Shown: one piece after another, positions 50,498 to 64,000 of the stretch | How the letters are laid out: each line of letters starts with the position of its first letter | How positions within the stretch are numbered: position 1 is the stretch's first letter | Assembly: GCF_040760005.1 (NCBI RefSeq) | Contig: NZ_CP099760.1 | Coordinates: forward strand, 1,049,501 to 1,113,500 | Direction of reading: 5' to 3' | DNA: 64,000 nucleotides | Source of the DNA: Pseudomonas sp. stari2 | GTDB taxonomy: Bacteria; Pseudomonadota; Gammaproteobacteria; Pseudomonadales; Pseudomonadaceae | Program-made: the position numbers and the translations under genes | The notes under the pieces: generated by a model | What the model saw: the letters and a program-made list of their open reading frames with translations, nothing else | Database searches by the model: none | What the model was told of the DNA's origin: nothing

Positions 50498-50573
50498 GCC
50501 CGTGTAGCTCAGCCGGTAGAGCAGCGCACTCGTAACGCGAAGGTCGCAGGTTCGATTCCTGTCTCGGGCACCA
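50498..50573 (+). tRNA. tRNA-Thr(CGT), integration site
   Basis: 76 bases; acceptor GCCCGTG pairs with the 3' strand before the discriminator and CCA, the anticodon loop CTCGTAA gives CGT, and the T-arm has GGTTCGATTCC. An integrase gene starts 167 bases downstream in the same direction, the classic layout of an element integrated in a tRNA 3' end. The second att copy is not in the window. Confidence 0.95.
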
Positions 50574-50584
50574 CTCAATAGATT

Positions 50585-50659
50585 CATGCAGTGCCAAGCA
50601 GTAGCATGAGTCCACTTATAAGCCCGCTTAGTGCGGGCTTTTCGTTTCATGCGGTGCCA
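50585..50659. repeat. short repeats and terminator between tRNA-Thr and int
   Basis: catgcagtgcca (50585-50596) and catgcggtgcca (50648-50659) are near-identical direct repeats, each followed by a further catg. They resemble arm-type integrase sites. Between them lies the tRNA terminator: agcccgc / gcgggct at 50621-50639 with TTTT. Confidence 0.45.
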
Positions 50660-50739
50660 TCCAGTGTCATGCGAGCGCTTGTCTTTTGAGTACCTCTGCG
50701 AGTACCTTAGGTCTGTTCAATAATCTATGGGTACTCGGC

Positions 50740-51957
50740 ATGCCTTTGACGGCTTTGCAGGTTAAGAATGCTGTGCCTCGTGAGAGAGACTATGGCCTCG
50801 CCGATGGCGGTGGCCTATTTCTCTGGGTTCGCGTGGCGGGCGGCAAGTCCTGGCGCTTTCGCTTCCGTCTGGATGGCAAGCAATCTCACGTGTCCCTTGG
50901 CACAGTCAGCAACGTAACCCTTGCACAGGCGCGGCAGCTTGCCTTCGAGTCTCGCCAGCTTGTGGCACAGGGGCGACATCCTGGGCTTGAACGGAAGGTT
51001 GCGCGAGCCCAGGCGGCAATTTCACGAGCAAATACGTTCAAGAGCCTCGCTCTTGAGTGGCATCTCCACAAGTCGCCTCGTTGGTCGGCAGGCTATACCG
51101 CTGACGTTCTGGAAGCTTTCGAGCTGGATGTCTTTCCCCAAGTGGGCAATTTTCCATTGGCTGAAATCAAGCCGATGCAATGGTTGCAGGTTTTTCGTCG
51201 CATAGAATCACGAGGTGCATTGGAGAAGCTGCGCAAGGTTCGGCAGCGCTGCCAAGAGGTCTACCGTTTCGCAATTGCCACCGGCCGTGTTGAGTACAAC
51301 CCCATCGCAGATATTGGAGGGGCGCTTCAAACCCCAACGTCTCGACACTACCCCTTCTTGCCCATCGCAGAGCTACCCGACTTGATACATAGCTTTCAGG
51401 CATGTCCTGGGCACGATGTGGTGAAAATCGCTACCCGCCTGCTCATTCTGACAGGGGTACGAACTGCTGAGTTGAGGGGCGCTCCTTGGTCTGAATTCGA
51501 TCTTGATAGAGAGCTATGGGTAATCCCCGCTGTGCGAATGAAGATGCGCCGCGCTCATTCCGTGCCTTTGCCTAAACAGGCAGTGGCTGCATTGCGTGAG
51601 TTAGAAGACATTACTGGCGGCTATACCCTCGCATTCCCTGGCCGAAACGATCCAGCGAAGCCCATGAGCGAGGCTGCCATAAACCAGCTACTCAAGCGCT
51701 CTGGCTACGACGGTCGTGCTACAGGGCACGGGTTCCGCCATACGATGTCGACTACTTTGCATGAACAAGGATATCGCAGCGAATGGGTCGAAACTCAGTT
51801 GGCACATGTGGATAAAAACAGTATTCGCGGCACATACAATCACGCCCAGTATTTGGAAGGGCGTCGTGAGATGCTCCAATGGTATGCCGATCATCTGGAT
51901 TCATTATTATTGAATAGGTTCGTCGTTTCCACTGCATCGGTGGAGAGAAACATATGA
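50740..51957 (+). CDS. P4-type tyrosine recombinase / integrase
   Basis: 405-residue site-specific integrase. The N-terminal DUF4102-type arm-binding domain reads LADGGGLFLWVRVAGGKSWR and WRFRFRLDGK; a SAM-like core-binding domain follows. The catalytic domain has R in TGVRTAELRG, HxxR in GHGFRHTMST, and the tyrosine in IRGTYNHA, so all key residues are kept. ATG at 50740 is chosen; an upstream TTG at 50686 is unlikely. Its stop overlaps the next gene by 4 bases. It should mediate integration at the adjacent tRNA-Thr. Confidence 0.93.
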   Translation: MPLTALQVKNAVPRERDYGLADGGGLFLWVRVAGGKSWRFRFRLDGKQSHVSLGTVSNVTLAQARQLAFESRQLVAQGRHPGLERKVARAQAAISRANTFKSLALEWHLHKSPRWSAGYTADVLEAFELDVFPQVGNFPLAEIKPMQWLQVFRRIESRGALEKLRKVRQRCQEVYRFAIATGRVEYNPIADIGGALQTPTSRHYPFLPIAELPDLIHSFQACPGHDVVKIATRLLILTGVRTAELRGAPWSEFDLDRELWVIPAVRMKMRRAHSVPLPKQAVAALRELEDITGGYTLAFPGRNDPAKPMSEAAINQLLKRSGYDGRATGHGFRHTMSTTLHEQGYRSEWVETQLAHVDKNSIRGTYNHAQYLEGRREMLQWYADHLDSLLLNRFVVSTASVERNI

Positions 51958-52682
51958 CTGATGAGCTGATCCGTTTATGTGATCTTCTACCTATGTACTC
52001 TAATTATCATGGGGTCAGCTTGCCTGAGGCTGCATTTGGTCTCTACGAGCTTATGGATGAAGCTTTTCTTGCGTATATAGGTCGCTCTGAAGAGCTGCTT
52101 CCCGAACGGCTATTTTGGGTTGGTAGGGTCGGTTCACCAGAACCATCTGCCAGAGGTTATGTTTTAGGTCATGAAGGATTGCTTAAATACTTTAAAGGAT
52201 TGTGTGACTCATCTGATGGTATTCAATCTATTAACTGTTTTTGTCACGCGGAATATGAGTACACTAACGTTCCCGCTAGCATTGTATACTCCTCGAAGGA
52301 GGCTCTCAGTGAATGGTTAAAAAATGCAGGAGTTTCAGATCATCCGTTTGTTTTGGATGCTGGGGCGAATTCGAGAGAATATGGTGGGAGCGGTGCTGTT
52401 AGCTCTAAGGAGCTTAATTCAATTAGCTTAATTGTTAATGGATTAGTTGAGCTGATTAAAGAGGTTGACAAGGCCCATACGGTCCAGGGGCTTGATGCTG
52501 CTGCTCAGATGCGAGCTGATGCTATCAAGCGTCGTGCTTTAGGCGTTCGTTCGGTACGCAAGAATTTTAACCCATGCATGGCAATTCTATCGTTGGCCGA
52601 TGCTGCCCAAGTCGAGATGCCGAAAAGTCACAAGACCCTTGGGAAGTTCATGAAAGGCCATAGTCAAAGTGATATGGATTAG
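51954..52682 (+). CDS. unknown protein translationally coupled to the integrase
   Basis: 242-residue protein not recognised. The N-terminal half is acidic and aromatic (YSNYHGVSLPEAAFGLYELM); the C-terminal half has an amphipathic helix region (NGLVELIKEVDKAH) and a basic patch (AIKRRALGVRSVRKN). No signal peptide or membrane helix. The ATGA overlap with int suggests joint expression; it may assist recombination or be cargo. Codon use is AT-richer than the core genes. Confidence 0.7.
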   Translation: MTDELIRLCDLLPMYSNYHGVSLPEAAFGLYELMDEAFLAYIGRSEELLPERLFWVGRVGSPEPSARGYVLGHEGLLKYFKGLCDSSDGIQSINCFCHAEYEYTNVPASIVYSSKEALSEWLKNAGVSDHPFVLDAGANSREYGGSGAVSSKELNSISLIVNGLVELIKEVDKAHTVQGLDAAAQMRADAIKRRALGVRSVRKNFNPCMAILSLADAAQVEMPKSHKTLGKFMKGHSQSDMD

Positions 52683-52803
52683 CGTCCGTGATTTTTGAGA
52701 GTTTCCGGCATTTCCGTGAAAAACCGGCAATTGCCACGACTCGCTGTCACAGGTGCCATTAAATCCCTAGCCATCCAATCCGGTTCCAAGGAGACCCGTC
52801 CAG

Positions 52804-53010
52804 ATGGCTAGTCAACCTGTCTCACCTCTATTGCTTCGCCTACCTGGGGTCTGTGCTCTGGTAGGGCTTAGCAAATCTCAGATCTACCGGTTGATCCGAG
52901 CCGGCGATTTTCCTCCAGGCGTTTCCCTTGGTGCGAACTCTGTGGCTTGGCCTGCCGAGCAAGTACATGCCTGGGTGGCACAGAAGATCAGTGCATCCAT
53001 TCCTCAGTGA
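52804..53010 (+). CDS. AlpA-family excisionase/regulator
   Basis: 68-residue MerR/AlpA-like winged helix-turn-helix protein. PGVCALVGLSKSQIYRLIRAGDFPP at the front half and VAWPAEQVHAWV at the end are the AlpA pattern. Such proteins act as excisionases or as activators of integrase genes on prophages and islands. AAGGAG lies 10 bases before the ATG. Its stop shares a base with the start of the replication gene (TGATG). Confidence 0.85.
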   Translation: MASQPVSPLLLRLPGVCALVGLSKSQIYRLIRAGDFPPGVSLGANSVAWPAEQVHAWVAQKISASIPQ

Positions 53011-53894
53011 TGACTGTGAATAGAACACTTACGAGCCTCCTGGCTCGAATTGAGGAAAATCAAAAGCGTTCTCTTGCTACGCCACAAGAGGTCAAAGTCG
53101 AGGATGAGGTTCATTTATTACCGAACTGGTCCGACTCGGTACGTCGTGTTCCTAACGTCGCTCTACGTTCAGCGCTATTTGGTGCAATTGGAAAAGGACA
53201 TCGGCCATATGTTGAACAAATGGAAATTAATGCCCTTGGGGGTATCGGTATTGTTTATACAGGTGCACTACTTGATCAGGGTGATCTAGATGTGTGGGAG
53301 ACGGTGTTGCACCTAGCGCGAATGCAGGAATTGGGTACGGAGTGCAGGGTAACCGCGTATCGGCTGTTGAAGATTCTTGGTAAAACAGATACGGGGAAAA
53401 ACCGAAAGATTTTAGACAAGCATATTAGTAGGCTCAAGGCTACAGCGTTGCAGATTAAGGTGGGGGAGCATTCATATGAGGGGAGCTTTATTCATGAAGT
53501 CTATCGTGCTAAAGACGAGCGAAGTGAACGTATATACGCCATTCGATTGAATCCAAAGCTTCATGTGCTGTTTAATGGCAGTCAGTATACTAATGTGAAC
53601 TGGTCTGTTCGCCAGGCGCTACATGGAAAGCCGCTTGCTCAATGGGTGCACGGATTTTATTCATCGCATGCAAAGTCTTATGATTACAAAGTTGAGACCC
53701 TACACCAATTATGCGGGAGTCGTGCGAAGTCTTTATCTGACTTCAAAAAAGATTTGCGCCGCTCCCTTGAAGCTGTAGCGCGTGCAAGTACCGCAGAGGG
53801 GCAGCCATTTAGCTATCTTTTGGAAGGAAATCTGGTGCAAGTTAAAACTACCCCAAGCGCTTCTCAGCAGCGCCATCTGGCGAAGAAGCGCTAA
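53010..53894 (+). CDS. TrfA-family plasmid replication initiator
   Basis: 294-residue protein resembling the TrfA replication initiator of broad-host-range IncP plasmids. Recognisable stretches are LLPNWSDSVRRVPNVALRSA, GIVYTGALLDQGDLDVWE and LAQWVHGFYSSHAKSYDYKV. TrfA binds iterons and opens the origin. Here a six-copy iteron-like array starts immediately after the stop codon. ATG at 53010 overlaps the AlpA stop and lacks a clear ribosome site, which suggests coupling. A plasmid initiator inside a tRNA-integrated element points to a replicating excised form. Confidence 0.8.
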   Translation: MTVNRTLTSLLARIEENQKRSLATPQEVKVEDEVHLLPNWSDSVRRVPNVALRSALFGAIGKGHRPYVEQMEINALGGIGIVYTGALLDQGDLDVWETVLHLARMQELGTECRVTAYRLLKILGKTDTGKNRKILDKHISRLKATALQIKVGEHSYEGSFIHEVYRAKDERSERIYAIRLNPKLHVLFNGSQYTNVNWSVRQALHGKPLAQWVHGFYSSHAKSYDYKVETLHQLCGSRAKSLSDFKKDLRRSLEAVARASTAEGQPFSYLLEGNLVQVKTTPSASQQRHLAKKR

Positions 53895-54022
53895 TACCGT
53901 TCCAGCCCCCCTATTTTTGCCGTTCCAGCGCCCCCGACCTTGCCGTTCCAACACCCTAGGCTACCGTTCCAAGACCCCGGCGATGCCGTCCCAGCACCCA
54001 TGATGTACCGTTCTAGCACTCC
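53895..54022 (+). repeat. six iteron-like repeats (putative oriV)
   Basis: Six copies of about T(A/G)CCGTTCCAGCACCC start at 53895, 53918, 53941, 53962, 53984 and 54006, spaced 21-23 bases (two helical turns). They begin one base after the stop codon of the TrfA-like gene. An AT-rich patch at about 54076-54121 could be the unwinding element. Last two units carry single changes in the core. Confidence 0.8.
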
Positions 54023-54140
54023 TTGAGTTCGACTGTGAAATCGCGCTCTAGCCCAGCAAGGGTAAGGGATGCAGCGATTTTTACTGAGTACACTAATCTG
54101 TTATTAATCAATTCTAATCACTGCCGTTTCGGTTGAATCC

Positions 54141-54644
54141 ATGAGGTTTTCAAGGATGAACCACGAACCATTGCCTAGCACTTGGGTTATCGAGGAGGCG
54201 CGAACGTTTATGAGAGCTGCTCAGATACTGGAGCAAAGGGCTACTGATGACCGCGATCTGAATCTGTTCTGGCCAGCCGTTATGAATTCGGCGCTCGCCT
54301 GTGAGCTATTTCTGAAATCGTGCTTGGTGGAGGCTGACCCCCGACATCCGAGAACTGAGCATGACCCCGAAGGGCATTTGCGGCTCGCTGTGCGGATGCC
54401 TGGAAATGGTCATGGCCTGGCCGATCTGTACAACGTCATTTCGCCTGAGCTGACCAATCGACTATGCGAAGTATCAGAGCGTATAGCGCCAGATTTCCCC
54501 CTAGAAAAATGGATTAAAACAGCCTCGAAGCTATTCGTCGGAACTCGATATCCGTACGAAGCGAACTCCGTCCAAAGCGTGGATTTGGAGGTGTTGAAGC
54601 TTGCTCCGCATTTAGATTGCGTGCTGTCGGAAATGACGTGCTGA
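54141..54644 (+). CDS. HEPN-like protein
   Basis: 167-residue helical protein of uncertain family. SALACELFLKSCLVE at about 50-64 is the helix typical of HEPN domains, and R85-(x5)-H91 in RMPGNGHGLADLY fits the RX4-6H pattern of HEPN nucleases. It ends with a region typical of these small proteins (FVGTRYPYE). Start could be 54141 or 54156. It lies just after the putative origin and convergent to the mobilisation-type block. RNase activity is inference. Confidence 0.5.
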   Translation: MRFSRMNHEPLPSTWVIEEARTFMRAAQILEQRATDDRDLNLFWPAVMNSALACELFLKSCLVEADPRHPRTEHDPEGHLRLAVRMPGNGHGLADLYNVISPELTNRLCEVSERIAPDFPLEKWIKTASKLFVGTRYPYEANSVQSVDLEVLKLAPHLDCVLSEMTC

Positions 54645-54658
54645 ACCCTGAATTGGGC

Positions 54659-55135
54659 CTATAACAGGGTATGAAAACTGCGAGTGCGCTCGACTTTAAG
54701 AGCATGTCTGACGGCAGAAGCTGTTTCGTCGCCCCCAAGAGCCCAAGAGTCCATCAATGCGGTGACTTGATCCAGCCGGTCCTGCATCAATCGGACCTGT
54801 TCTTGGTCTCTGTAGGCGGCTCTCAATGCTACGTCGCGGTCTTGGTCAGAAATGGCAAGGACGTCACGCAGGCTTTCGACTTCTTCATCGTGCCGCTTTG
54901 TGATTTCAGAGATATGGCCATGGTGGTGCAGCTCTGTCTCTTTGAGCGCGTCGCTGTGTTCCTTGAGCAGAGCTTTATGCCGCTCGACACTGGCGTTGAG
55001 GGTGGCTTTGAGCCGCGCTCTAGATTTTTTGCTTTCCAAGAGCATCACTGCCAAGACACCAATCACAATCACTGATACGCCGATCACGAAGAGCAAGCTG
55101 CTGCTGATCCACGTAGGGTCGATGTTTATTCTCAA
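54659..55135 (-). CDS. membrane-anchored coiled-coil protein
   Basis: 158-residue protein with one N-terminal membrane helix (residues 10-32) followed by a long charged coiled coil rich in H, E, K and R (about 35-130). No family recognised. Its start overlaps the stop of the recombinase-like gene (ATGA), so it belongs to that operon and may anchor the nucleoprotein complex at the membrane. Function is guesswork. Confidence 0.65.
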   Translation of the reverse strand: MRINIDPTWISSSLLFVIGVSVIVIGVLAVMLLESKKSRARLKATLNASVERHKALLKEHSDALKETELHHHGHISEITKRHDEEVESLRDVLAISDQDRDVALRAAYRDQEQVRLMQDRLDQVTALMDSWALGGDETASAVRHALKVERTRSFHTLL

Positions 55136-56058
55136 CGCAGATAGACCTCTGTAATTTCCGGCCGGAAGTGGCCCATTTCCTGTGAAACCACCGCCAGAGC
55201 CTGTTTTCGCGTTAAGTGGCGTTGCAATGTCGCCATGCGCTCTTGGGCGTAGGTATGCCGCAGTCCATGTGCGCCGTTCGACCAGCCGAGCGCTCCTTTG
55301 GAGGCTGCACTAACACTTTTGCTCCAGGGCTGACCGCCGCCAATCCCGTAAAACTGTTGGTAGTTGATTCCTCGATCTTTAACGATTCGTGGCTCTGCCA
55401 ACCGTGTTCTTTCCAACCGTTGGGCTAGGGGAATCGGAATACGTACTTCGCGGATTAGCCCGCCCTTGCCGTGGACGGTATAGCTGATAGTCGTCTCGCG
55501 AATTCCTGAAAACTTCATTCCGTGCGCCGGACGTTGATCCGGCACACGTTGGTGCGTTCTGCGAAGGCCGAGTAACTCATGAGCACGAAGGCCGGCGGAG
55601 TGCGCAATCTCTGTCGCCAGTGCGTTATGCGGAGCTTGGCGAGCTGCAATCAATGTCATTTGCTCGCGGTTGTATGCTCTTGCCTGATCAGCAAGCCTGC
55701 GACCCAAAGTGGGATGGTTTGTCGTTCCCATGCGACTTGTCGCGGTGCTCCTGATTACCTCCAGGGTTTGTCTTGGTGGTAGCTGATGAGTGACATGCTG
55801 CATCATGGCTTGGAGGGCTTGGCGCTCCATGTCCAAGGTTTTCTGACCAACGACCGTTGCACGTTGCTGGAGGTATTCAAGAGCACGGGCAGGTGTCATT
55901 TCACGGAGGCTGCCTAGTCGATGCTCTTGAAGGTAACTGGTAATGCGCACCAAACGTTGCTCATAGTTGCGAACGGTGCCGACTGAGCGGATGTGGGTGC
56001 CTTGGAGGCTTTTCATCACGGACGCGGCTTGTTTCGCAGGCTTGGCAAACTTAGCCAC
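55132..56058 (-). CDS. second tyrosine-recombinase-fold protein (MpsA-like candidate)
   Basis: 308-residue protein with a tyrosine recombinase catalytic domain: R in SAGLRAHELLGL, K in VHGKGG, HxxR in AHGLRHTYAQ, GH in EMGHFRPE, and a tyrosine in the final EVYLR. The protein ends right after that tyrosine. It is far from the tRNA, so it need not be an integrase. SGI1 of Salmonella encodes MpsA, an atypical relaxase with this fold and a small partner MpsB; the present gene pair has that form. Homology to MpsA itself is inferred, not shown. Confidence 0.7.
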   Translation of the reverse strand: MAKFAKPAKQAASVMKSLQGTHIRSVGTVRNYEQRLVRITSYLQEHRLGSLREMTPARALEYLQQRATVVGQKTLDMERQALQAMMQHVTHQLPPRQTLEVIRSTATSRMGTTNHPTLGRRLADQARAYNREQMTLIAARQAPHNALATEIAHSAGLRAHELLGLRRTHQRVPDQRPAHGMKFSGIRETTISYTVHGKGGLIREVRIPIPLAQRLERTRLAEPRIVKDRGINYQQFYGIGGGQPWSKSVSAASKGALGWSNGAHGLRHTYAQERMATLQRHLTRKQALAVVSQEMGHFRPEITEVYLR

Positions 56059-56491
56059 TCTGGCGATTCCGATGTAGCCATCGGTGCACTGTCGAGCGTT
56101 GGATCTTGATGCCTTTCTCCGCTATCCAGCGTTGCAGTTCGCTGCCATTGCAACCTGCTGAATCAAGCTGCAACAGCTCGTACTTGTAGTTATCCAGCAA
56201 TGAGCGACGTTGGGCATAGGTTCGGGGTTTTCTCCGAATCCTAGATTCGGCCTTGAGGCGTGCAGTAATGCTCTGCGCATCGAATTCGCTCATGGGATTC
56301 TCTCTATCAGATGTAAGAACTCCTGACCGTTGCCGGTTCAGCGACACACCATCCGTAGATGGTTCGTTGTGTGCCTGTTCGCCCCCCTTTGCATCAGACG
56401 CAGGCGGGGACTGTTCACGCCTACTCGGAGTCTCCGAGTGAGTTCCTGAATGTCCGCTCAGGTTCGGTTGCCATTGGGTCTGGCTGACCAT
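56051..56491 (-). CDS. small basic DNA-binding-like partner protein (MpsB-like candidate)
   Basis: 146 residues, or 80 if translation starts at the ATG at 56293. The N-terminal 66 residues are disordered and polar. The C-terminal half is basic (KAESRIRRKPRTYAQRRSLL) and ends in a helix-turn-helix-like pattern (SELQRWIAEKGIKIQRSTV) similar in layout to small relaxosome accessory proteins. It overlaps the next gene by 8 bases. A region with direct repeats and a long palindrome lies immediately upstream. Confidence 0.6.
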   Translation of the reverse strand: MVSQTQWQPNLSGHSGTHSETPSRREQSPPASDAKGGEQAHNEPSTDGVSLNRQRSGVLTSDRENPMSEFDAQSITARLKAESRIRRKPRTYAQRRSLLDNYKYELLQLDSAGCNGSELQRWIAEKGIKIQRSTVHRWLHRNRQSG

Positions 56492-56567
56492 GCTGGGTGG
56501 TCTTCTCTCCTTAAGTGATTGGTCGTTGATGGTCCCGACACGTAGTCGGCGTTAGGGCGGGCACACA

Positions 56568-56616
56568 CGCGATGACGCAGGTGTGGCCGATGGGCTACTG
56601 CCCGCGATGACGCAGG
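56568..56616. repeat. two 14-bp direct repeats
   Basis: CGCGATGACGCAGG occurs at 56568-56581 and again at 56603-56616, 35 bases apart. Both lie upstream of the small DNA-binding-like gene and may be its binding sites. Confidence 0.6.
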
Positions 56617-56772
56617 CCGAGCCCCCTGCCACTGTCCCAACCCATGAATCACACGGGTAACGAGACTGCCGGGCAGTGCGGTTTGGTTCCTGATCAGCTT
56701 ACGAAAATGGGGATGGGCAGACAACGCAATGTCGCTGCGTTGTATTTGTTGCGTCAAATCGGAATGGTCGAG

Positions 56773-56821
56773 TGTGCCCGCTATGTAGAGCGCCATTTAG
56801 GCGCGTTACATAGCGGGCACA
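56773..56821. repeat. long near-perfect palindrome
   Basis: Arms 56773-56787 and 56807-56821 are a perfect 15-bp inverted repeat (tgtgcccgctatgta), and inside it gcgcc/ggcgc pair around ATTTA with a short bulge. No T-run follows, so this is unlikely to be a terminator. Such structures are common at oriT nic regions and at replication or recombination sites. Confidence 0.75.
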
Positions 56822-56930
56822 GAGGCGCCGAAAAGTGAGGCGGTAGTAACTACATCGGGTTGAGTGGAGACGCAAGAAGGGGGGCGATAGGCTGGAGGTT
56901 GTTCAGCCTTATTGCCGGAGAGATGTGAGC

Positions 56931-57248
56931 ATGAAACTGAGGAGTTTTCTGGATTCAATGTACCTGCGGATGCCTCTTGCCACAAAGTGGGTAGGCAGGG
57001 CAGGGATTATCCTCGGGCCAATTCTAGGCCTGCTGCACTTGGTCACTGCGGCGGTTATGCGGCGATACGGTCAGTATGTTGTGGAGCAGTATGATGCCGT
57101 TCAGCGTACCGGCAATCTGTTAGCAGCACCGGCGGCCCAGTATTTCATCCTGCTCGGTTTCGCACTGTGTCTACTCTGGTTGGGGTTGTGGGCGGTCAGG
57201 ATTGGTTTGGCCCTGCGTAGCTGGATGATTCGGCGGCGGATAGTCTAA
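56931..57248 (+). CDS. small membrane protein upstream of traG-like gene
   Basis: 105-residue protein with two membrane helices (about 23-45 and 68-92) and a basic C-terminus. Not recognised. CCGGAG precedes the ATG. Its stop overlaps the start of the TraG-like gene (TAATG), so the two are coupled and probably act together. Confidence 0.65.
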   Translation: MKLRSFLDSMYLRMPLATKWVGRAGIILGPILGLLHLVTAAVMRRYGQYVVEQYDAVQRTGNLLAAPAAQYFILLGFALCLLWLGLWAVRIGLALRSWMIRRRIV

Positions 57249-59107
57249 TGAGTGTCGCGACGGCTGAGGATTTTGCCGGGTTCAACTGGGTGTTCGGGCT
57301 GTGGGAAAACGTCGCACTGACGATCATGACCGCTACCGAACCATTATTCGTAGCACTCAATGAAACGAGCACTGAACTAATCGCAGTAGTTGGCTTTGGC
57401 TGGTTGTTGCTGGTTGTGCTGCGTCTCGGTGAGGGGGCAGGCCGTACATTCTTTGCAGGAATCTTAATTTTCCTGGTTCTGGCGTACGGCATGAGACCGG
57501 AAACTGTCACGCTTCCGAGTGGTGCTTCAGTGCAAATGATCGAGGTCCAAGCGGTTCCGCTTAAAATTGTCATGGCGATACATGTGATGTACCGGCAGGC
57601 ATTCGATCAGGTTTTGAGCGACCAAACAGTGGCCGGCACAATTGTCCCGGCGCAGTCTGCAATCGACAATATGGTTGGGCGCTCAGCGGATGTGTTTGCG
57701 GGTAGCGATCTGGCCCGACTGATCAGGGATTACAACGCCAGTTGTGCCCCGGCACCTGCTGAGCTCGCAGGGCCTGAGCATGCAGCTAAGGTAGAAGCAT
57801 TACATGCCATTGGCCTGCTGGGCGGCGGGGGACTCGGCATTCCGGATAAAGAAGTCGGTCTCATTGCGCAGGCACGTACGGGCCTTGGCGGTGCGTGGAC
57901 GTACGTGTTTGGTTCCGCTGAGGAAAATGGCGGTTGGGGGGCCTATCTGCTGGGCGGGGGAGCTGCCCGGACTGGTTTGGAACATGTTCTCGACCAGAGA
58001 GCCATCCAGTCACGCCGAGAAGCGGGTATACGAGCGTTAGAATCTGCTGGCCCGTTCATGGGGAGCAGCTATGCATTGCCAACTCAGGCGCACTGGGCCG
58101 CAAGGCTTGCAGGTCAATCGGAAGCTACGCCGTCCTATTTACCGATCAGCAAAATACCCAATCAGAAATCGACAATCGTCGGAGAAGACCAGGGGATCAT
58201 GTTTCGGCCGTCCAGCTGTGTCGAGGCTTACCAGATCGCGCAGATGGGAGCAGAGCAGGCCTATCAAGCGCTGCGCGAATCAGGTGAGGTCATCGCAGGT
58301 GGGCAGCGAGTCAGTGCGGAGGTCGGAGCCGTCAGTACTGCGGTGGCGTGGCAACGATTCATGACTCGTTCTCTAGAGAGAACGACAGACCTATCGCATG
58401 AGAACAGCGAGGTCGCCGGGGGAATCTTGGCCGCTGCTCAGATGTTCAAAAATTTCAGTGGCTGGCTGGATCTACAAACGCTCCTGCCGGGATATGTCAT
58501 CATGTCGGCTTGGTTATTTTGGATTGTCTTGATCCTTGCCCCGCTTTTCCTGCTGCTGGCGCCTCTGCGGGGAGGTAAGATACTCGTCAATTGGCTATCC
58601 CTACTTCTTTTGCCGGTCATCGCGGTTATGACCGCCCAGATGATCACCGTTGCGATCTCACAAACCATGGCCGCTGTAGCTGTAGCGCAGGCAGGAGCTG
58701 CGAGTGGATGGACTGGAGTTGGGGCTGATTACGATGGGCTTCGTGGATTGATGTCAGCCGTAGCTGCCGTATCGCTTGGCCTCTCCACTTGGATCACTTC
58801 GAGTATGCTTGGTGTTTCGTTGGGAGGGCTGGCGGGCAGCCTGTCAGGCGCCGTGGCTACAGCCAGCGATGCGGGTCGCTTCGCTATGAAAGCGGTTGGC
58901 GTCGCCATGTTGGGGGCTCGGTTGGCGGGGATAGGTGCTGCGGCTTCATCAGGGCGTGGAGGTGGTTCAAGCCCTCAGAAAGGCGCTGGAGCATCTCCAT
59001 CGGTCCCTCGGTCTGCCGATCCGGTAGGTCCTAGCTCGATTCCACCACCCCGGCCCAGTAGTCAAGGTGCGGGGAGATCGCTAAACCCTCCGAAACCTAA
59101 AAATTAG
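57248..59107 (+). CDS. TraG-N-like conjugation membrane protein
   Basis: 619-residue membrane protein. Two or three helices lie near the N-terminus (about 43-85), then a large periplasmic region (about 90-400), then several helices (about 415-560, including MSAWLFWIVLILAPLFLLLA), and a Gly/Ser/Pro-rich tail. This is the layout of the N-terminal part of F-type TraG, which acts in mating-pair stabilisation and entry exclusion. It lacks the long periplasmic C-terminal region of full TraG. No other transfer genes are seen nearby. Assignment is by topology and composition, so moderate. Confidence 0.6.
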   Translation: MSVATAEDFAGFNWVFGLWENVALTIMTATEPLFVALNETSTELIAVVGFGWLLLVVLRLGEGAGRTFFAGILIFLVLAYGMRPETVTLPSGASVQMIEVQAVPLKIVMAIHVMYRQAFDQVLSDQTVAGTIVPAQSAIDNMVGRSADVFAGSDLARLIRDYNASCAPAPAELAGPEHAAKVEALHAIGLLGGGGLGIPDKEVGLIAQARTGLGGAWTYVFGSAEENGGWGAYLLGGGAARTGLEHVLDQRAIQSRREAGIRALESAGPFMGSSYALPTQAHWAARLAGQSEATPSYLPISKIPNQKSTIVGEDQGIMFRPSSCVEAYQIAQMGAEQAYQALRESGEVIAGGQRVSAEVGAVSTAVAWQRFMTRSLERTTDLSHENSEVAGGILAAAQMFKNFSGWLDLQTLLPGYVIMSAWLFWIVLILAPLFLLLAPLRGGKILVNWLSLLLLPVIAVMTAQMITVAISQTMAAVAVAQAGAASGWTGVGADYDGLRGLMSAVAAVSLGLSTWITSSMLGVSLGGLAGSLSGAVATASDAGRFAMKAVGVAMLGARLAGIGAAASSGRGGGSSPQKGAGASPSVPRSADPVGPSSIPPPRPSSQGAGRSLNPPKPKN

Positions 59108-59604
59108 AGTTTGGGCAGGAGGGGCGGCGTTGACCGCCCTGGTGCAGATGATGACGCCACGATCAGTGGGGCCCATCTACACAAGCCCCCCCCATTCCGC
59201 AGGCGGCACTCGCGCTGCCTGCATGCCGCCCCATGAAATCTCCGGTTTCGTACCGCTCCGGTATCTGGCCGCACTGCTCCACCATTGGCATGCCAGTGAG
59301 TCACCTTTAGGCTGCCCGTCAAAAGTCCCACGAAACCTAGCGCTACCATCGGTATGTCTTCGTGCCAACTAATGGCGTCACCGCCGCACCAGTGACAGAC
59401 CGTTTGCTATCACAGGCAGGCCGCTGGGGTTCATCTTCATACCCTGTCGCGCCTTGTTATCTCCCTGGCGCACCACGGGGCTTCTCAAGAAATGACTACG
59501 GCATCCCCAATTCCCAGCGGGGGAACTGAGCATTTTTTTCTAGAGCGCCATGACACGCCCTGAGGTGGAGGTAACTTCAGTTTCAAATGAGGCTGGAGGT
59601 TGGT
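59108..59604. other. intergenic region after the traG-like gene
   Basis: About 500 bases with no gene I can support; frames here lack ribosome sites and typical composition. A weak hairpin followed by seven T (59511-59541) may be a terminator. Confidence 0.4.
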
Positions 59605-59775
59605 ATGAAGCAGTTTTTGGTCACAGTTGTATGTGCCGGGGCGGGGTTTTGGCTGGGGGCTCACCGTTTGGTTCCTCTATGGTTGATCGTCGCTCTGGCA
59701 TTGCTAGGTGCGGGGTTGTGGAGCGTGGCCGAGTGGATTGAGCGTCGAGAAGCGAACGGCGAGCGGAAACCATGA
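59605..59775 (+). CDS. small membrane protein
   Basis: 56-residue peptide with two hydrophobic helices (FLVTVVCAGAGFWLGA and LWLIVALALLGAGLWSVAEW) and a charged tail. GGAGG lies upstream of the ATG. Its stop overlaps the next start (ATGA). Not recognised. Confidence 0.55.
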   Translation: MKQFLVTVVCAGAGFWLGAHRLVPLWLIVALALLGAGLWSVAEWIERREANGERKP

Positions 59776-59993
59776 TGCACGCCGATCTCCAGGAGCTTGT
59801 GGTGTTATCTGCAATGTTTCCCTCCTGGTCGTGGAGGCAGGCGACAGGGCGTCGGGTCATTGTGGCCTCGGAGGGCTCCATCATTCGCCTTTACTGGATG
59901 CCGGCGCTTTTATGTCTGGACGAATTCCGCTGCCAGCTATTTGTGCAGCAACTCAATGCTGTGGGCGTATCCCGTAGCTTTGGCGAGGGGTGA
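59772..59993 (+). CDS. small unknown protein
   Basis: 73-residue protein overlapping the preceding small membrane protein by 4 bases; a second ATG directly follows the first. Contains LQELVVLSAMFPSWSW and a region rich in aromatic and hydrophobic residues. No family recognised. Part of a three-gene run with the lipoprotein that follows. Confidence 0.5.
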   Translation: MMHADLQELVVLSAMFPSWSWRQATGRRVIVASEGSIIRLYWMPALLCLDEFRCQLFVQQLNAVGVSRSFGEG

Positions 59994-60028
59994 ATGGAAT
60001 GGCACATTGTTATCAAGGAGCGTGCTGA

Positions 60029-60547
60029 GTGAAGAAATGGAAACTGGCGTTACTGGCGATGGTAACTGCGTCAATAACTGGATGCTGGCAGGGGGATTAC
60101 GCGTTCGAAGGGAAGTATTTCGCTACTGAGGGAGAGGAATGCACGACGCCCTCCAGCGTCATGGACCGGGAGCAATACTTTCTGGAGATAACGAAGCAGA
60201 TACACAACGGCACTGCACTTTATTCGGCCAAGTTTCCAATTGCTTCGCGGGCAGGAGCCCCGATTGCCACCGCTCAAAGCGTCTCTGCAACGGACGATGA
60301 TGAGCTCACCTTCAATTTCACCAAGCCAGAGGTGTCGGGGACATTTTCAGGAAGCCCGGCAGTGGATATCGTCATCACTGTCATTCCCAACAAGAGCAAG
60401 GAAGGTCATCTTTGGCTCAAAAAGGCAGAGCTCACAAGCGTTCGGAGTGGAAAGGTCAGCGAAGCTGATCTTCTTGCGAACCTGAGAAGAGCCACAACTA
60501 TCGGGGAGACAGGCGCCTGCTTGAGGAAAGGTAGCGATACTCACTGA
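60029..60547 (+). CDS. predicted lipoprotein
   Basis: 172-residue exported lipoprotein. The signal peptide KKWKLALLAMVTASITGC ends in a lipobox with cysteine at residue 19. The mature part has two more cysteines near both ends (GEECTTP and GACLRKG) and beta-rich polar sequence. The start is GTG at 60029, with AAGGAG upstream. Function unknown; surface lipoproteins on such elements may act in entry exclusion or envelope stress, which is only a possibility here. Confidence 0.6.
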   Translation: MKKWKLALLAMVTASITGCWQGDYAFEGKYFATEGEECTTPSSVMDREQYFLEITKQIHNGTALYSAKFPIASRAGAPIATAQSVSATDDDELTFNFTKPEVSGTFSGSPAVDIVITVIPNKSKEGHLWLKKAELTSVRSGKVSEADLLANLRRATTIGETGACLRKGSDTH

Positions 60548-60728
60548 CGATGGGCGCCACGTTACTGTGAGCTGGTGAGTGCGTTTTGGTGTTCCCTTCC
60601 CGCGATGGCACCTAACGGTGCGCCATTTGCTTCATCGGGTCGTTGACTTCGACCTGCTTACCTATCACAAGATGCTGAAGGCAGAGGATGAGCTGGCCTT
60701 ACGGATGAAGGACGCTCTGAACACTAGA

Positions 60729-60760
60729 AGCCCTCCGACATGCTCTGTGTTTGGAGGGCT
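60729..60760 (-). terminator. hairpin downstream of the 44-residue frame
   Basis: agccctcc / ggagggct with a 16-base loop. On the minus strand it follows the stop of the small gene at 60777 and is trailed by TTCT only, so it is a weak terminator candidate. Confidence 0.4.
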
Positions 60761-60776
60761 AACAGCCTACAGCGAA

Positions 60777-60911
60777 TCAATCACCTGGCTTGTGCTTGTG
60801 AATAGGCAGAGTCGGGTGCTTCTTATCGTTAGGCGGATTTACGTGCCGCCTGCGGTCGTCGTTACCGTCTTCGCGCTTTGGTTTCGGAGCTGGTTTGATA
60901 TCAGTAAACAT
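60777..60911 (-). CDS. 44-residue Pro/Lys/His-rich peptide
   Basis: A small frame with a strong AGGAG ribosome site five bases before its ATG. The product is very hydrophilic (KPAPKPKREDGNDDRRR and NDKKHPTLPIHKHKPGD) with no hydrophobic core, so it is probably disordered. It is oriented against its neighbours and has a hairpin downstream. Not recognised. Confidence 0.4.
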   Translation of the reverse strand: MFTDIKPAPKPKREDGNDDRRRHVNPPNDKKHPTLPIHKHKPGD

Positions 60912-61425
60912 GTGTACTCCTGTAAGCAACATGGATGAGAGGCTACGAAAAGGTAGCACATGGCCATGCGTCCGCCTTGATTCTGTGGGAGCGGCGGGAT
61001 GCGAGCTGCGATGCCCTTTATTGTGACTCGATGACTTTGTGATACGTATCAACAACCCTACGCTTTCGTGCGTATGCATTCTGAAGCGGCCACTTGTGGA
61101 GCCCTGAAAGCTCGATCTGGCGGCCAACTTTTCGCTGTAAGGCGAGTGCGTTGTATAGAAGCGTGGCGATCTCAAAGCTGGGCGACTAATTTTCTGGTGG
61201 AGGAGAGCGATGCCGTCAGGAGCGCTACAGGACAGGGGTGTTTGCCTGCGGTCAGAGCGGTTTCGCTCAAGCTAGTGGCTACGGCCTGATAGAGCGGTGC
61301 ACTGTGCATCCATACAGAAAAAATCACCTCGTTCGTCGCTACTCCCTTGTACCTACGCAGTCGCGATGGGATAATGAGCTCTAGTCCACCTTCAAGTGCT
61401 TTAAAATCAGGGGTTTACGAAAAAA
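60912..61425. other. intergenic region before the AAA-protease operon
   Basis: About 500 bases with no supported gene. It contains a perfect 12-bp palindrome TGATACGTATCA at 61040-61051, which could be an operator, and an AT-rich stretch just before the ATPase gene that probably holds its promoter. Confidence 0.45.
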
Positions 61426-62553
61426 ATGGACGAGTTCCGCGACGTCATCACAAAATTAGTCCAGATTGCTAAGGTCGGTGCGCTGGGCGATGGCGAGAAG
61501 GTGCGAATTCAAGCTTTGCGCTTGGTGCGAAGCCTTCGAGAAGCGGGAAGTCCTATAGCTGAGCTCATCCAGAATGAGGTTTTTTCCCAGCGGTTTGACC
61601 AGTCTGCGGCTAGTGCGATACGCCGCGTAAAGGATTCTGGTCTGACATCCCCCGTACCGGCTGATAATGAAACAAATAGTGAGCTTCTTAACGTCGAAGA
61701 CCCAGTAACTCTTCCGAACGGCTTTGTCAGCTCGGAGGAAATCAAGGGTCCGTTAAATCTGATAATCTCAGAGCGAAAGAATACTAAGCGGCTCATCGAA
61801 GCCGGTATAATGCCCACGAGCAAGATTTTATTTACCGGTCCACCTGGTGTTGGAAAGACTGTTTGTGCAAAGTATTTAGCTCAGAAGCTGAAGGTGCCTT
61901 TGTTAACGCTGGATTTGGCGACCGTAGTAAGTAGTTATCTAGGTAAGACGGGGAATAATATAAAGCGATCCCTTGAGTATGCGCGCTCGCGTCCGTGTGT
62001 CCTATTGCTTGATGAGCTTGATGCGTTTGCCAAAAAACGGGACGATCATTCAGATGTTGGTGAAACTAAGCGGCTAGTTACCGTTCTGCTTCAAGAGCTA
62101 GATCAGTGGCAAGGGAATAACTTGTTAGTGGCTGCCACAAATCATTACCACCTCCTTGACCCTGCTGTGCAGCGGAGGTTTGATCAGGTTGTAGAGTTTA
62201 AGCGACCTAGTACAGAGGATCTGATGCGGGTCGGAGGTGTATTGACAACAGGAAGTGGTTTGCCGAAAGATTGGTTGTATTTCGTGTCTGTGCTCATGCA
62301 GGATACTTCCTATAGTGACTTCCAGAGAGAGATAAACAATCTGCGGAAGGCTCAGTTACTAGAGGGTGAAGTTGGCGCTACCAATTTTTTGAAAATGCTG
62401 TTAGAACGGCAGTGCCCTGATGATCGTGCACAGCGGAAGCAATTGGCATTGCTGTTGGTGACCAAGGGGAAGGCGTCACAGCGAATGGCCAGCAAAATTA
62501 CCGGCGTTTCAAGAGATACACTTAGATCAGCATTGTCAGCAGGAGCTAAATAA
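61426..62553 (+). CDS. AAA+ ATPase paired with subtilase
   Basis: 375-residue classic AAA ATPase. An N-terminal helical region (1-100) precedes the AAA core: Walker A GPPGVGKT at 138-145, Walker B LLLDELD at 193-199, sensor-1 AATN at 236-239 and an arginine-finger region RRFD at 250-253. The C-terminal tail looks like a small helix-turn-helix (ASQRMASKITGVSRDTLRSA). Its stop overlaps the start of the protease gene (TAATG). Similar ATPase/S8 peptidase pairs occur in bacterial accessory islands; a regulatory or unfolding role for the protease is inferred. Confidence 0.85.
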   Translation: MDEFRDVITKLVQIAKVGALGDGEKVRIQALRLVRSLREAGSPIAELIQNEVFSQRFDQSAASAIRRVKDSGLTSPVPADNETNSELLNVEDPVTLPNGFVSSEEIKGPLNLIISERKNTKRLIEAGIMPTSKILFTGPPGVGKTVCAKYLAQKLKVPLLTLDLATVVSSYLGKTGNNIKRSLEYARSRPCVLLLDELDAFAKKRDDHSDVGETKRLVTVLLQELDQWQGNNLLVAATNHYHLLDPAVQRRFDQVVEFKRPSTEDLMRVGGVLTTGSGLPKDWLYFVSVLMQDTSYSDFQREINNLRKAQLLEGEVGATNFLKMLLERQCPDDRAQRKQLALLLVTKGKASQRMASKITGVSRDTLRSALSAGAK

Positions 62554-64000
62554 TGGCCGAGAAAGAACGATTTCTATTTGGACGCGGGGAAAAGCTGGCA
62601 GATCATGTGCCATTTAAATCTGGTTTTGGAGAACCAGTGCCGCCCTACACGCTGGATGAGCAGGTTGAACGCATAGGGCACATGCTAGATGATGTTATAA
62701 ATGACATCGCTGTGACTCCCAAGGATGCCTTAGCTGATGGCAAAGCTGTGACTTCTGTCACTCTTCATCCCCAATACATAGCTCGCTCCGGATTTCCTGT
62801 TTCTTTGTTGGCTGCTTACTCTTTAAGGTTGATTGGTAGTAAGCCTAGCAAAAGCAAACCAAAAGCAGGGCGGGGAAGCGAAAAAGATGAGGGTATAGCT
62901 TCTACTGTTCTCTATGTTGCAGGGGAGCCTGAGTCTTTCCAAGCGTTCAAGGAGTCGTTATCGGGGCTTGATGAAGAAAGCAATGTTTCAAGTGATCTTG
63001 TGAAGATTGAAAGCTTGGAGCTTCTTAAACCCGAAGATAGGCTACTGGGTGATTTTGACCAAGATACAAATAAATTAGAGGTAATCGTACATTTCGATAG
63101 TGCGATTGATATCGATTGGGAAGCAGACTTTCAAAGATATGCTTCAAAGAGTAAAGTCAAGCTGGATATGTCCCGATCATACCAGAGTCGAGGCTTGCTT
63201 TTTTTAAGTGCGGAGGGTACAGAGGCATCGGTGCAGCAACTGGCAAAGTTCTCTTTCATTAGAGCTATTCGAAAAATGCCTGTGCTCCGAACGGTGAGTC
63301 GCCCACAGATGCTGCGCAGTACTGGGAATGGTCGCTTCTCAATTCCTGCTGAAAAAGCTCTCGATGAAACGTTCAAGGTCGCAGTTTTTGACGGTGGCTT
63401 ACCTGGAAACCATCCCTTTGGATTGTGGGCAAAAAATATCGAGCCCAGTGGATCATTTCGTATCGGCGCTCCTGTGCCCGCTTACTTGGAGCATGGACAA
63501 GCGGTAACCTCCGCTCTGCTTTTTGGCAATATTCAGCCAGGGGGGTTGGAACGACCTTACGCGGAAGTAGATCATTATCGGGTGCTCGGTGACGAGCTCA
63601 CAGATGGTAGCTTGTATGAGGTAATGCTATATATTGACAACATTTTATCCCAGTCGAATTATCCTATTATCTCTTTCAGTATAGGGCCTGCGCAAATTGC
63701 AGGGGATGATGAAGTTACTGCTTGGACATCGATGCTGGATGATCATCTTGGGGATGGAGATATTCTCGCCGCTGTCGCAGTTGGGAATTATGGTGATGAA
63801 GCTTGGCCAGACAGTCGAATTCAGGTTCCGAGCGACTCCGTCAACGCTTTAGCCATTGGTGCAAGCAATGGCCATCATGAAGGATGGGTTAGAGCCGCAT
63901 ACAGTTCTATCGGCCCGGGGCGAAGCCCAGGTCTAGTAAAACCTGACCTTGTATCCTTTGGAGGAGTTGAGGAGGATAAGTTTAAGTTTATTTTCCCTGG
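62553..64000 (+). CDS. subtilisin-like (S8) serine protease, partial
   Basis: Cut by the window edge; 482 codons are visible. The first 270 residues are a non-catalytic N-terminal region (QYIARSGFPVSLLAAYSLR). The S8 domain starts near 275: catalytic Asp280 in VAVFDGG, His314 in YLEHGQAV, and the oxyanion-hole Asn412 in VAVGNYGDE. The serine lies beyond the window. No signal peptide, so the enzyme is probably cytoplasmic and works with the ATPase encoded just before it. AT-rich codon use differs from the core genome. Confidence 0.85.
   Translation, partial: MAEKERFLFGRGEKLADHVPFKSGFGEPVPPYTLDEQVERIGHMLDDVINDIAVTPKDALADGKAVTSVTLHPQYIARSGFPVSLLAAYSLRLIGSKPSKSKPKAGRGSEKDEGIASTVLYVAGEPESFQAFKESLSGLDEESNVSSDLVKIESLELLKPEDRLLGDFDQDTNKLEVIVHFDSAIDIDWEADFQRYASKSKVKLDMSRSYQSRGLLFLSAEGTEASVQQLAKFSFIRAIRKMPVLRTVSRPQMLRSTGNGRFSIPAEKALDETFKVAVFDGGLPGNHPFGLWAKNIEPSGSFRIGAPVPAYLEHGQAVTSALLFGNIQPGGLERPYAEVDHYRVLGDELTDGSLYEVMLYIDNILSQSNYPIISFSIGPAQIAGDDEVTAWTSMLDDHLGDGDILAAVAVGNYGDEAWPDSRIQVPSDSVNALAIGASNGHHEGWVRAAYSSIGPGRSPGLVKPDLVSFGGVEEDKFKFIFP

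Follow-up and report, generated by a model that had tools for sequence, protein, structure and literature searches.

Salmonella genomic island 1 (SGI1) carries MpsA, a recombinase-like protein presumed to be its relaxase (residues R162, H247, R250, H251, and Y319), which in the cited passages is described as needing MpsB and having a 125-bp origin of transfer (oriT) nearby (PMC6414798; PMC9299015). Together with MobK and TcpM, MpsA makes up the published tyrosine recombinase (TR)-like relaxases named in the part of PMC9299015 drawn on here, where the oriT is placed upstream of the relaxase gene. MobK is reported to require Y179, and its plasmid, pIGRK, to be mobilized by RP4 (PMC8152469, in part). 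The SGI1-like elements at dusA and yicC are described as retaining MpsA, MpsB, TraG, TraN, and SgaC, with TrfA in those at yicC (PMC8409611, in part), while excerpts of two further sources state that TraG of SGI1 reshapes the pilus of its helper (PMC11389934) and list one SGI1-related element in P. aeruginosa (PMC9035990). Here we describe an element beside a tRNA-Thr gene of Pseudomonas sp. stari2, in a stretch of 64,000 nucleotides (the window, positions 1049501-1113500 of G000:C1, one single 6.31-Mb contig), for which an original prediction made from the DNA had proposed the logic of an SGI1-type mobilizable island. In our view it is likely an integrative mobilizable element that follows the logic of SGI1 yet forms a lineage of its own; its helper would be a type IV secretion system (T4SS) of the pQBR57/IncP-2 type, and its proteins MobR and MobS (MobRS) would nick in the region of a conserved palindrome.

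Extent and ends of the element

The target gene and the left end are as follows (window positions, here and below).

50498..50573, + strand: tRNA-Thr (CGT), the integration target, whose 3′ part recurs at the distal end (ARAGORN)
50549..50575, unstranded: attL, a 27-bp repeat with an identical attR at G000:C1 1116718-1116744 (repeat search)

The distal att repeat expected for an element at this tRNA gene was found: the 25-bp 3′ end of tRNA-Thr is seen again at G000:C1 1116718-1116742, and after extension the repeat is 27 bp (GGTTCGATTCCTGTCTCGGGCACCACT). The element runs on beyond position 64000, attR lying 3.2 kb past the window end, and measures 16,669 bp from the 3′ end of tRNA-Thr (50549) to the att repeat, with a GC content of 0.523 versus 0.583 for window positions 1-50000. 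When 500 bp of the right flank was used as query against 19 genomes, the own genome and relatives, seven matched, the own one included. The tRNA check took in five relatives' loci (L068-L072, setting aside L073, a short G009 match, and L074 and L075, pieces of G005); a tRNA-Thr lies a few bases from the right-flank sequence in L068 (G011) and L069 (G002) and ∼10 bp from it in L070 (G010), and none was found at L071 and L072.

A full T4SS gene set just past the window would have made the element self-transmissible, an alternative that is not borne out. No such set and no VirB4-sized protein was seen out to attR in the lists of open reading frames (ORFs; at least 50 aa in the window part, at least 90 aa from there to attR) and the main ORFs scanned; the larger open frames between the defense gene ietS, which the window end cuts, and attR encode 103 and 495 aa, both without family. 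TraN and TraH had no match among the island proteins scanned. An integrase, flanking att repeats, and the lack of a complete T4SS inside are what an integrative mobilizable element would show.

An orphan channel protein related to megaplasmid transfer systems

One gene of the island encodes a protein of conjugation type.

57248..59107, + strand: orphan TraG/VirB6-position mating-channel protein, 619 aa (profile homology to a T4SS protein)

The original prediction of a lone TraG-N-like protein held in that this is an orphan T4SS-channel homologue without a T4SS set, but the label is not borne out at the level of sequence family: none of 27 members scanned matches TraG_N (PF07916) at E up to 1. 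Homologues at E ≤ 0.001 number at least 70 in the scored part of the candidates, and no precomputed Pfam domain is recorded for any of them. Matches occur in eight of 298 genus genomes, two of which were set apart: G273, with a weak match containing internal stops, and G063, where the gene stands inside a T4SS. The G063 stretch (L030) encodes VirB4 (PF19044, PF11130) and has a weak TraF match, and relatives of its 679-aa protein were found in 134 plasmid records (132 from Pseudomonas), including pQBR57 and plasmids of 480-600 kb, which we take to be IncP-2. The corresponding cluster of pJBCL41 contains, in order, F-type TraC, TraD-like, and TraB-like genes and a weak TraF-like match.

Aligned with hhalign, the island family (27 sequences) matches seven megaplasmid proteins with a probability of 99.7 (E = 5e-26, 445 columns), against at most 0.3 for ten column-shuffled controls and one reversed control. 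The island-family hidden Markov model (HMM) likewise scores all seven megaplasmid proteins (47-82 bits) and no reversed sequence; with it the F and pRA1 proteins and the A. fischeri TraG_N protein are not above noise, and hhalign of the island profile to the TraG of pRA1 (IncA), a single sequence, gave a probability of 0.1. On this profile evidence the orphan is a homologue of the TraG-position protein of pQBR57/IncP-2 megaplasmid T4SSs, and the predicted helper is therefore not IncC. Unless a mating channel is available, it is hard to see what a T4SS-channel homologue would be for, which counts in favor of a mobilizable element. A tblastn search of plasmids with the window protein and its L027 relative gave no match.

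As a separate observation, 109 of the 134 megaplasmid records with the F-like T4SS protein are typed non-mobilizable by MOB-suite, and their relaxase may therefore be unrecognized.

A recombinase module with a membrane partner

Three overlapping genes, named here for their proposed roles, are read from the opposite strand.

55132..56058, − strand: MobR, tyrosine-recombinase-fold protein, putative relaxase (structure model, catalytic residues)
56051..56491, − strand: MobS, small basic partner with a computed isoelectric point (pI) of 10.1 and weak helix-turn-helix matches, overlapping mobR (Pfam, sequence)
54659..55135, − strand: MobM, a hydrophobic N-terminus followed by a long charged, coiled-coil-like region (by eye), with a 4-bp overlap with the mobR stop

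The second recombinase-fold protein with a small basic partner that had been proposed for this island is well founded. The matches of MobR in Pfam are sub-threshold only, including a SAM-like N-terminal stretch, and neither a single-sequence nor a profile search of PDB sequences found a match. Its structure model, with a predicted local distance difference test (pLDDT) score of 88, matches the integron integrase 2a3v (E 5e-9) and XerH (2.5e-7) in Foldseek. The catalytic residues and nucleophile by which a TR-like relaxase is recognized are in place, R158, K198, H264, R267, H268, H297, and Y306 being invariant in all 33 aligned sequences (the window protein plus a selection of 32 among 120 listed out of 2720). 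Klebsiella accounts for 72 of the 160 plasmid records with homologues, Vibrio for 34, and Aeromonas for 21; 145 of the 160 are typed non-mobilizable, eight conjugative, and seven mobilizable. The module is not confined to islands, being carried by many small plasmids of Gammaproteobacteria. A small gene is annotated directly before mobR in 11 of 13 plasmid loci (L052 has none annotated and L059 is without annotation), and in 13 of 16 loci of the closer clade, a count that leaves out L010 and L023 (a contig end, where the gene start is seen), there is a 4-bp overlap between the mobR stop and an ORF of MobM type, its N-terminal part strongly hydrophobic; in L054 an ORF with a hydrophobic start lies 55 bp downstream of mobR.

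What speaks most for a role of the recombinase in transfer is that two different recombinase families are paired with the orphan protein: in 16 of 16 loci compared, a tyrosine recombinase stands no more than 3 kb from the orphan TraG-like gene, from the MobR family in 11 and the Integrase_1 family in five. These loci include near-duplicates (L025/L026, L027/L029, and the window/L023), and dropped before the count were L031 (the G273 match), L030 (the G063 stretch, kept as reference), and L040, L048, and L049, on contigs shared with L023 and L024. In L042, built on the same backbone, an Integrase_1 recombinase stands where mobR would be, with the membrane and TraG-like genes retained. The two recombinases resemble each other over ∼60 residues at the catalytic end only. 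No hydrophobic ORF follows the Integrase_1 recombinase of L047.

The second family (PF12834/PF12835) stands beside the orphan TraG-like gene in L025, L026, L042, L047, and L050, and its relatives are found in 175 plasmid records, 113 of them typed non-mobilizable. L047, with a TraG-like protein of 45% identity, is on a contig filed under a cyanobacterial metagenome-assembled genome and may be contamination. L027, L028, and L029 carry distant pairs of MobR (∼47%) and TraG-like protein (∼26%) on stretches with tRNA-Met and a different palindrome.

A conserved palindrome as candidate oriT

The DNA upstream of mobS is itself conserved.

56492..56924, unstranded: candidate oriT, a conserved region from mobS to orf107 that holds a palindrome and a direct repeat of 14 nt (comparison of loci)
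56777..56817, unstranded: 41-bp palindrome CCCGCTATGTA-N19-TACATAGCGGG, upstream of mobS-mobR, conserved in islands and plasmids

With up to three mismatches allowed per arm, 17 of 18 loci in the clade with >50% identity have the palindrome upstream of mobS-mobR (eight without mismatch), comprising all eight islands or island-like loci and nine of ten plasmids, with site lengths of 36 to 42 bp. The plasmids with the palindrome beside a MobR homologue are from Klebsiella, Vibrio, Aeromonas, and Citrobacter. By our own arithmetic, a chance match to 22 fixed bases, with about three spacings allowed, is expected roughly once per 6×10^12 positions. More distant homologues have other sites: perfect 11-bp arms of a different sequence, 19 bp apart, on A. 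fischeri pKB1A97-67, palindromes of their own in S. baltica and on pA46H2, and 12-bp arms 30 bp apart in L027-L029; at L059 (V. campbellii) no clear palindrome was seen. Judged from sequence, the island is probably nicked by a recombinase-type relaxase and mobilized by a megaplasmid-type T4SS.

The Integrase_1-type loci L042, L047, and L050 have palindromes of their own upstream of the recombinase.

Helper search and the case for resolution

Several observations weigh against the mobilizable reading. A search of the own genome found no VirB4 of the kind predicted for the helper, and none of 13 island genomes has a strong match, G063, the source of the query, serving as positive control; among these 14 genomes, partial matches of ≤30% were found in G008 and G279. 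In 398 genus genomes, 100 match at E ≤ 0.001 and only four at ≥50% identity. The query is 60% identical to the VirB4 of pJBCL41 (IncP-2), so both helper types should show, and no helper and island were found together in the genomes searched. As to the orphan protein, neither the island nor the megaplasmid profile aligns to the TraG of F or pRA1 where this was tried, and the megaplasmid protein is named TraG by position only, matching no naming model in NCBIfam; a TraH ahead of it was not confirmed by BLASTP to pRA1 TraH or by NCBIfam. Modeling of the orphan gave a poor structure (pLDDT 58), with which Foldseek returned nothing at E ≤ 0.001, its matches to chains of the R388 VirB5-VirB6 stalk complex being weak (top probability 0.57). 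Nor is the module uniform: L043 and L008, in the closer clade, have no hydrophobic-start ORF after mobR, the distant loci L027-L029, L060, and L062 have no membrane gene (the ORF at that place in L059 is not hydrophobic), L054 lacks the palindrome despite belonging to the closer clade, and the mobR of L029 looks frameshifted. Finally, a distant MobR homologue (37.5%) shares the plasmid pKB1A97-67 with a MOBH relaxase and MPF_G, so that some members of the family may do otherwise, for example resolve multimers.

That homologue keeps resolution a real rival. MobRS could be a multimer-resolution recombinase acting at the palindrome, for the replicating circle and for small plasmids, with transfer by the relaxase of a helper or no transfer at all. 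The full recombinase catalytic set of MobR and the single palindrome per locus fit such a role, and SGI1 itself is reported, in the portion of PMC12217951 cited, to have a resolution system besides MpsA. Other features fit it poorly: a membrane protein is in most cases encoded in the operon as well, all 16 loci pair the recombinase with a T4SS-channel homologue, and L042 swaps in another TR family while keeping the membrane and TraG-like genes. The arms of most sites, 11 bp each and 19 bp apart, are also spaced wider than usual recombinase cores, which are of 6-8 bp. On balance we regard resolution as a rather unlikely role, and mobilization through a megaplasmid-type channel as the better account of the module.

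Integration and replication backbone and sister islands

The remaining backbone genes lie on either side of the module.

50686..51957, + strand: P4-type tyrosine integrase (PF22022 8e-27, PF00589 7e-23, PF13356 5e-22)
51954..52682, + strand: orf242, without family, 35-53% identity in five other backbone islands (partial in L045)
52804..53010, + strand: AlpA-type excisionase/regulator (PF05930 2e-14)
52947..53894, + strand: TrfA-type replication initiator (PF07042 8e-18)
53895..54022, + strand: six 17-nt iterons, TACCGTTCCAGCNCCCC-like, 21-23 nt apart, directly after trfA, putative replication origin (oriV)
54141..54644, + strand: ORF with sub-threshold HEPN similarity (E = 0.01; Pfam scan), no match in the other loci searched
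56925..57248, + strand: orf107, with two hydrophobic stretches and an overlap with the traG-like gene, kept in five other backbone islands (31% in L042)
60029..60547, + strand: orf172, lipoprotein-like N-terminus (own reading), 87% in L023 and 68% in L041, not found in L042-L045

The Pfam matches and the six iterons behind trfA agree with the P4-type integrase, AlpA, and plasmid-type initiator originally predicted; the true start of TrfA may be internal, near 53010. For orf172 and orf107, entry-exclusion or channel accessory roles are possible.

The order int-orf242-alpA recurs in five islands, L041 (Pseudomonas sp. GM84), L042 (Stutzerimonas frequens), L043 (P. anguilliseptica), L044 (Pseudomonas sp. 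BGI-2), and L045 (P. punonensis), with a tRNA-Thr found at all except L042, which upholds the idea of a Pseudomonas lineage with conserved gene order at this target. TrfA with similar iterons is present in four of them (L041, L042, L043, and L045), L044 having in its place a different 329-aa ORF and then other repeats. Distal repeats of 19-24 bp bound L041, L043, and L045, islands of 13.2-14.1 kb; the L044 locus stops before any right end, and the end of the L042 element was not found. A further tRNA-Thr island, L025 (48-bp repeat, 11.8 kb), has the TraG-like gene with an Integrase_1-type recombinase.

The lack of a T4SS set, in a genome without a VirB4 of the predicted helper kind, is also what a decaying remnant of an integrative and conjugative element, or a megaplasmid fragment that has lost mobility, would leave. 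Yet the backbone ORFs are open, int, mobR, trfA, and the traG-like gene are 58-94% identical in the sister islands carrying them, and modules and cargo have been swapped among islands. Moreover, a related MobR/TraG-like module in Pseudomonas sp. 8Z (L024, G008:C6, NZ_LR733833.1) is on a contig whose ends are identical over 127 bp and which is therefore a 13,707-bp circle. We give decay a very small chance.

The L024 circle also carries a ParA-like gene and a restriction-modification pair (cytosine methylase and NotI-like gene).

Cargo

The cargo, here defense genes, lies between the traG-like gene and attR, and its content differs among islands (IetAS and retron are names as used by the libraries).

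61426..62553, + strand: IetA, AAA ATPase of the IetAS defense system (PADLOC 1.4e-75; NF042959 5e-61, below cut-off)
62553..64000, + strand: IetS subtilase, truncated at the window end, with the full 741 aa in L006 (PF00082 2e-17; PADLOC 6e-45)

The adjacent AAA ATPase and subtilase identify IetAS; in L023 (P. rubra) the same IetA is seen (96%), together with the beginning of IetS. L043 carries type I-A retron genes (reverse transcriptase, ATPase, and HNH, the HNH protein scoring higher as PtuB), and L045 has three ORFs equal in length to these. The cargo of L041 gave weak matches only, and a 1189-aa restriction protein at L042 may lie outside the element. Next to attR and beside the defense genes, the 495-aa ORF of the present island (L006:5115-6602) has no Pfam or PADLOC match.

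Proposed mechanism and implications

From the families of their products, Int and AlpA would excise the island from the tRNA-Thr gene, and the excised circle may replicate by means of TrfA and the iterons. MobS and MobR are predicted to bind the 41-bp palindrome and nick nearby, making the region upstream of mobS the oriT, and the membrane protein MobM could tether this complex to the transfer channel. The channel would be supplied in trans by a helper, most likely one with a pQBR57/IncP-2-type T4SS, which the TraG/VirB6-position protein of the island would enter, as SGI1 TraG does with IncC plasmids. Such a subunit of its own might favor the island or evade entry exclusion.

Whether this extends to the family at large is in our judgment evenly balanced: MobR would stand for a wide family of recombinase-type relaxases, with an oriT recognizable in the sequence as a ∼41-bp palindrome, and the islands would add a TraG-type subunit of their own to the channel of pQBR57/IncP-2-type megaplasmids, an independent invention of the SGI1 strategy around a different helper. 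If true, many small plasmids of Klebsiella, Vibrio, and Aeromonas typed non-mobilizable, together with a Pseudomonas lineage of defense islands, would be mobilizable, and the strategy of a recombinase-like relaxase with one substituted channel subunit would have arisen with another class of helper. It also points to a possible means of spread in Pseudomonas for tRNA-Thr defense islands that carry IetAS or retrons, and supplies a candidate oriT for the many MobR plasmids, 145 of 160 records, typed non-mobilizable.

Comparison with known systems

Much of the SGI1-type logic of the original prediction stands, namely the integrase, AlpA, iteron replicon, TR-like protein with partner, and orphan T4SS subunit; the predicted helper is not of the IncC type, the TraG-like protein being related to that of pQBR57/IncP-2. 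As in SGI1 and the trmE, dusA, and yicC elements, an integrase, an own replicon (with TrfA in the yicC ones), and an orphan TraG occur without a T4SS set, and as in SGI1 a TR-like mobilization protein has a small partner and an oriT, here a candidate, with inverted repeats near the operon. This shared gene logic and the TrfA homologues described for yicC-specific SGI1-like elements (PMC8409611, in part) could mark a true SGI1-family element mobilized by IncA/IncC plasmids. However, the island targets tRNA-Thr and not trmE, dusA, or yicC (targets as given in the same portion of PMC8409611), its 619-aa TraG-like protein could not be aligned to IncA TraG in the single-sequence test with pRA1, and TraN and TraH are missing from the proteins scanned, so that this origin is the least credible of those considered. 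The island also differs from SGI1 in its third, membrane gene, the sub-threshold SAM-like stretch of MobR, and its defense cargo. We did not file it under the SGI1 family because its target differs and MpsA is known to us by description only.

MobR resembles MobK of pIGRK in its tyrosine-recombinase catalytic residues, a candidate oriT directly upstream, and homologues on small plasmids; MobK, by its description, has no core-binding domain or partner gene and uses Y179, unlike MobR with Y306 and MobS. With P4-type tRNA islands the element shares the integrase, AlpA, tRNA target, and defense cargo, but it differs in its conjugation-type genes and in the absence of phage-satellite genes among the families scanned. 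Unlike the F-like T4SSs of pQBR57 and the IncP-2 megaplasmids, the island has a single recognized channel protein, and it is this protein, homologous to the one in their TraG position, that it has in common with them.

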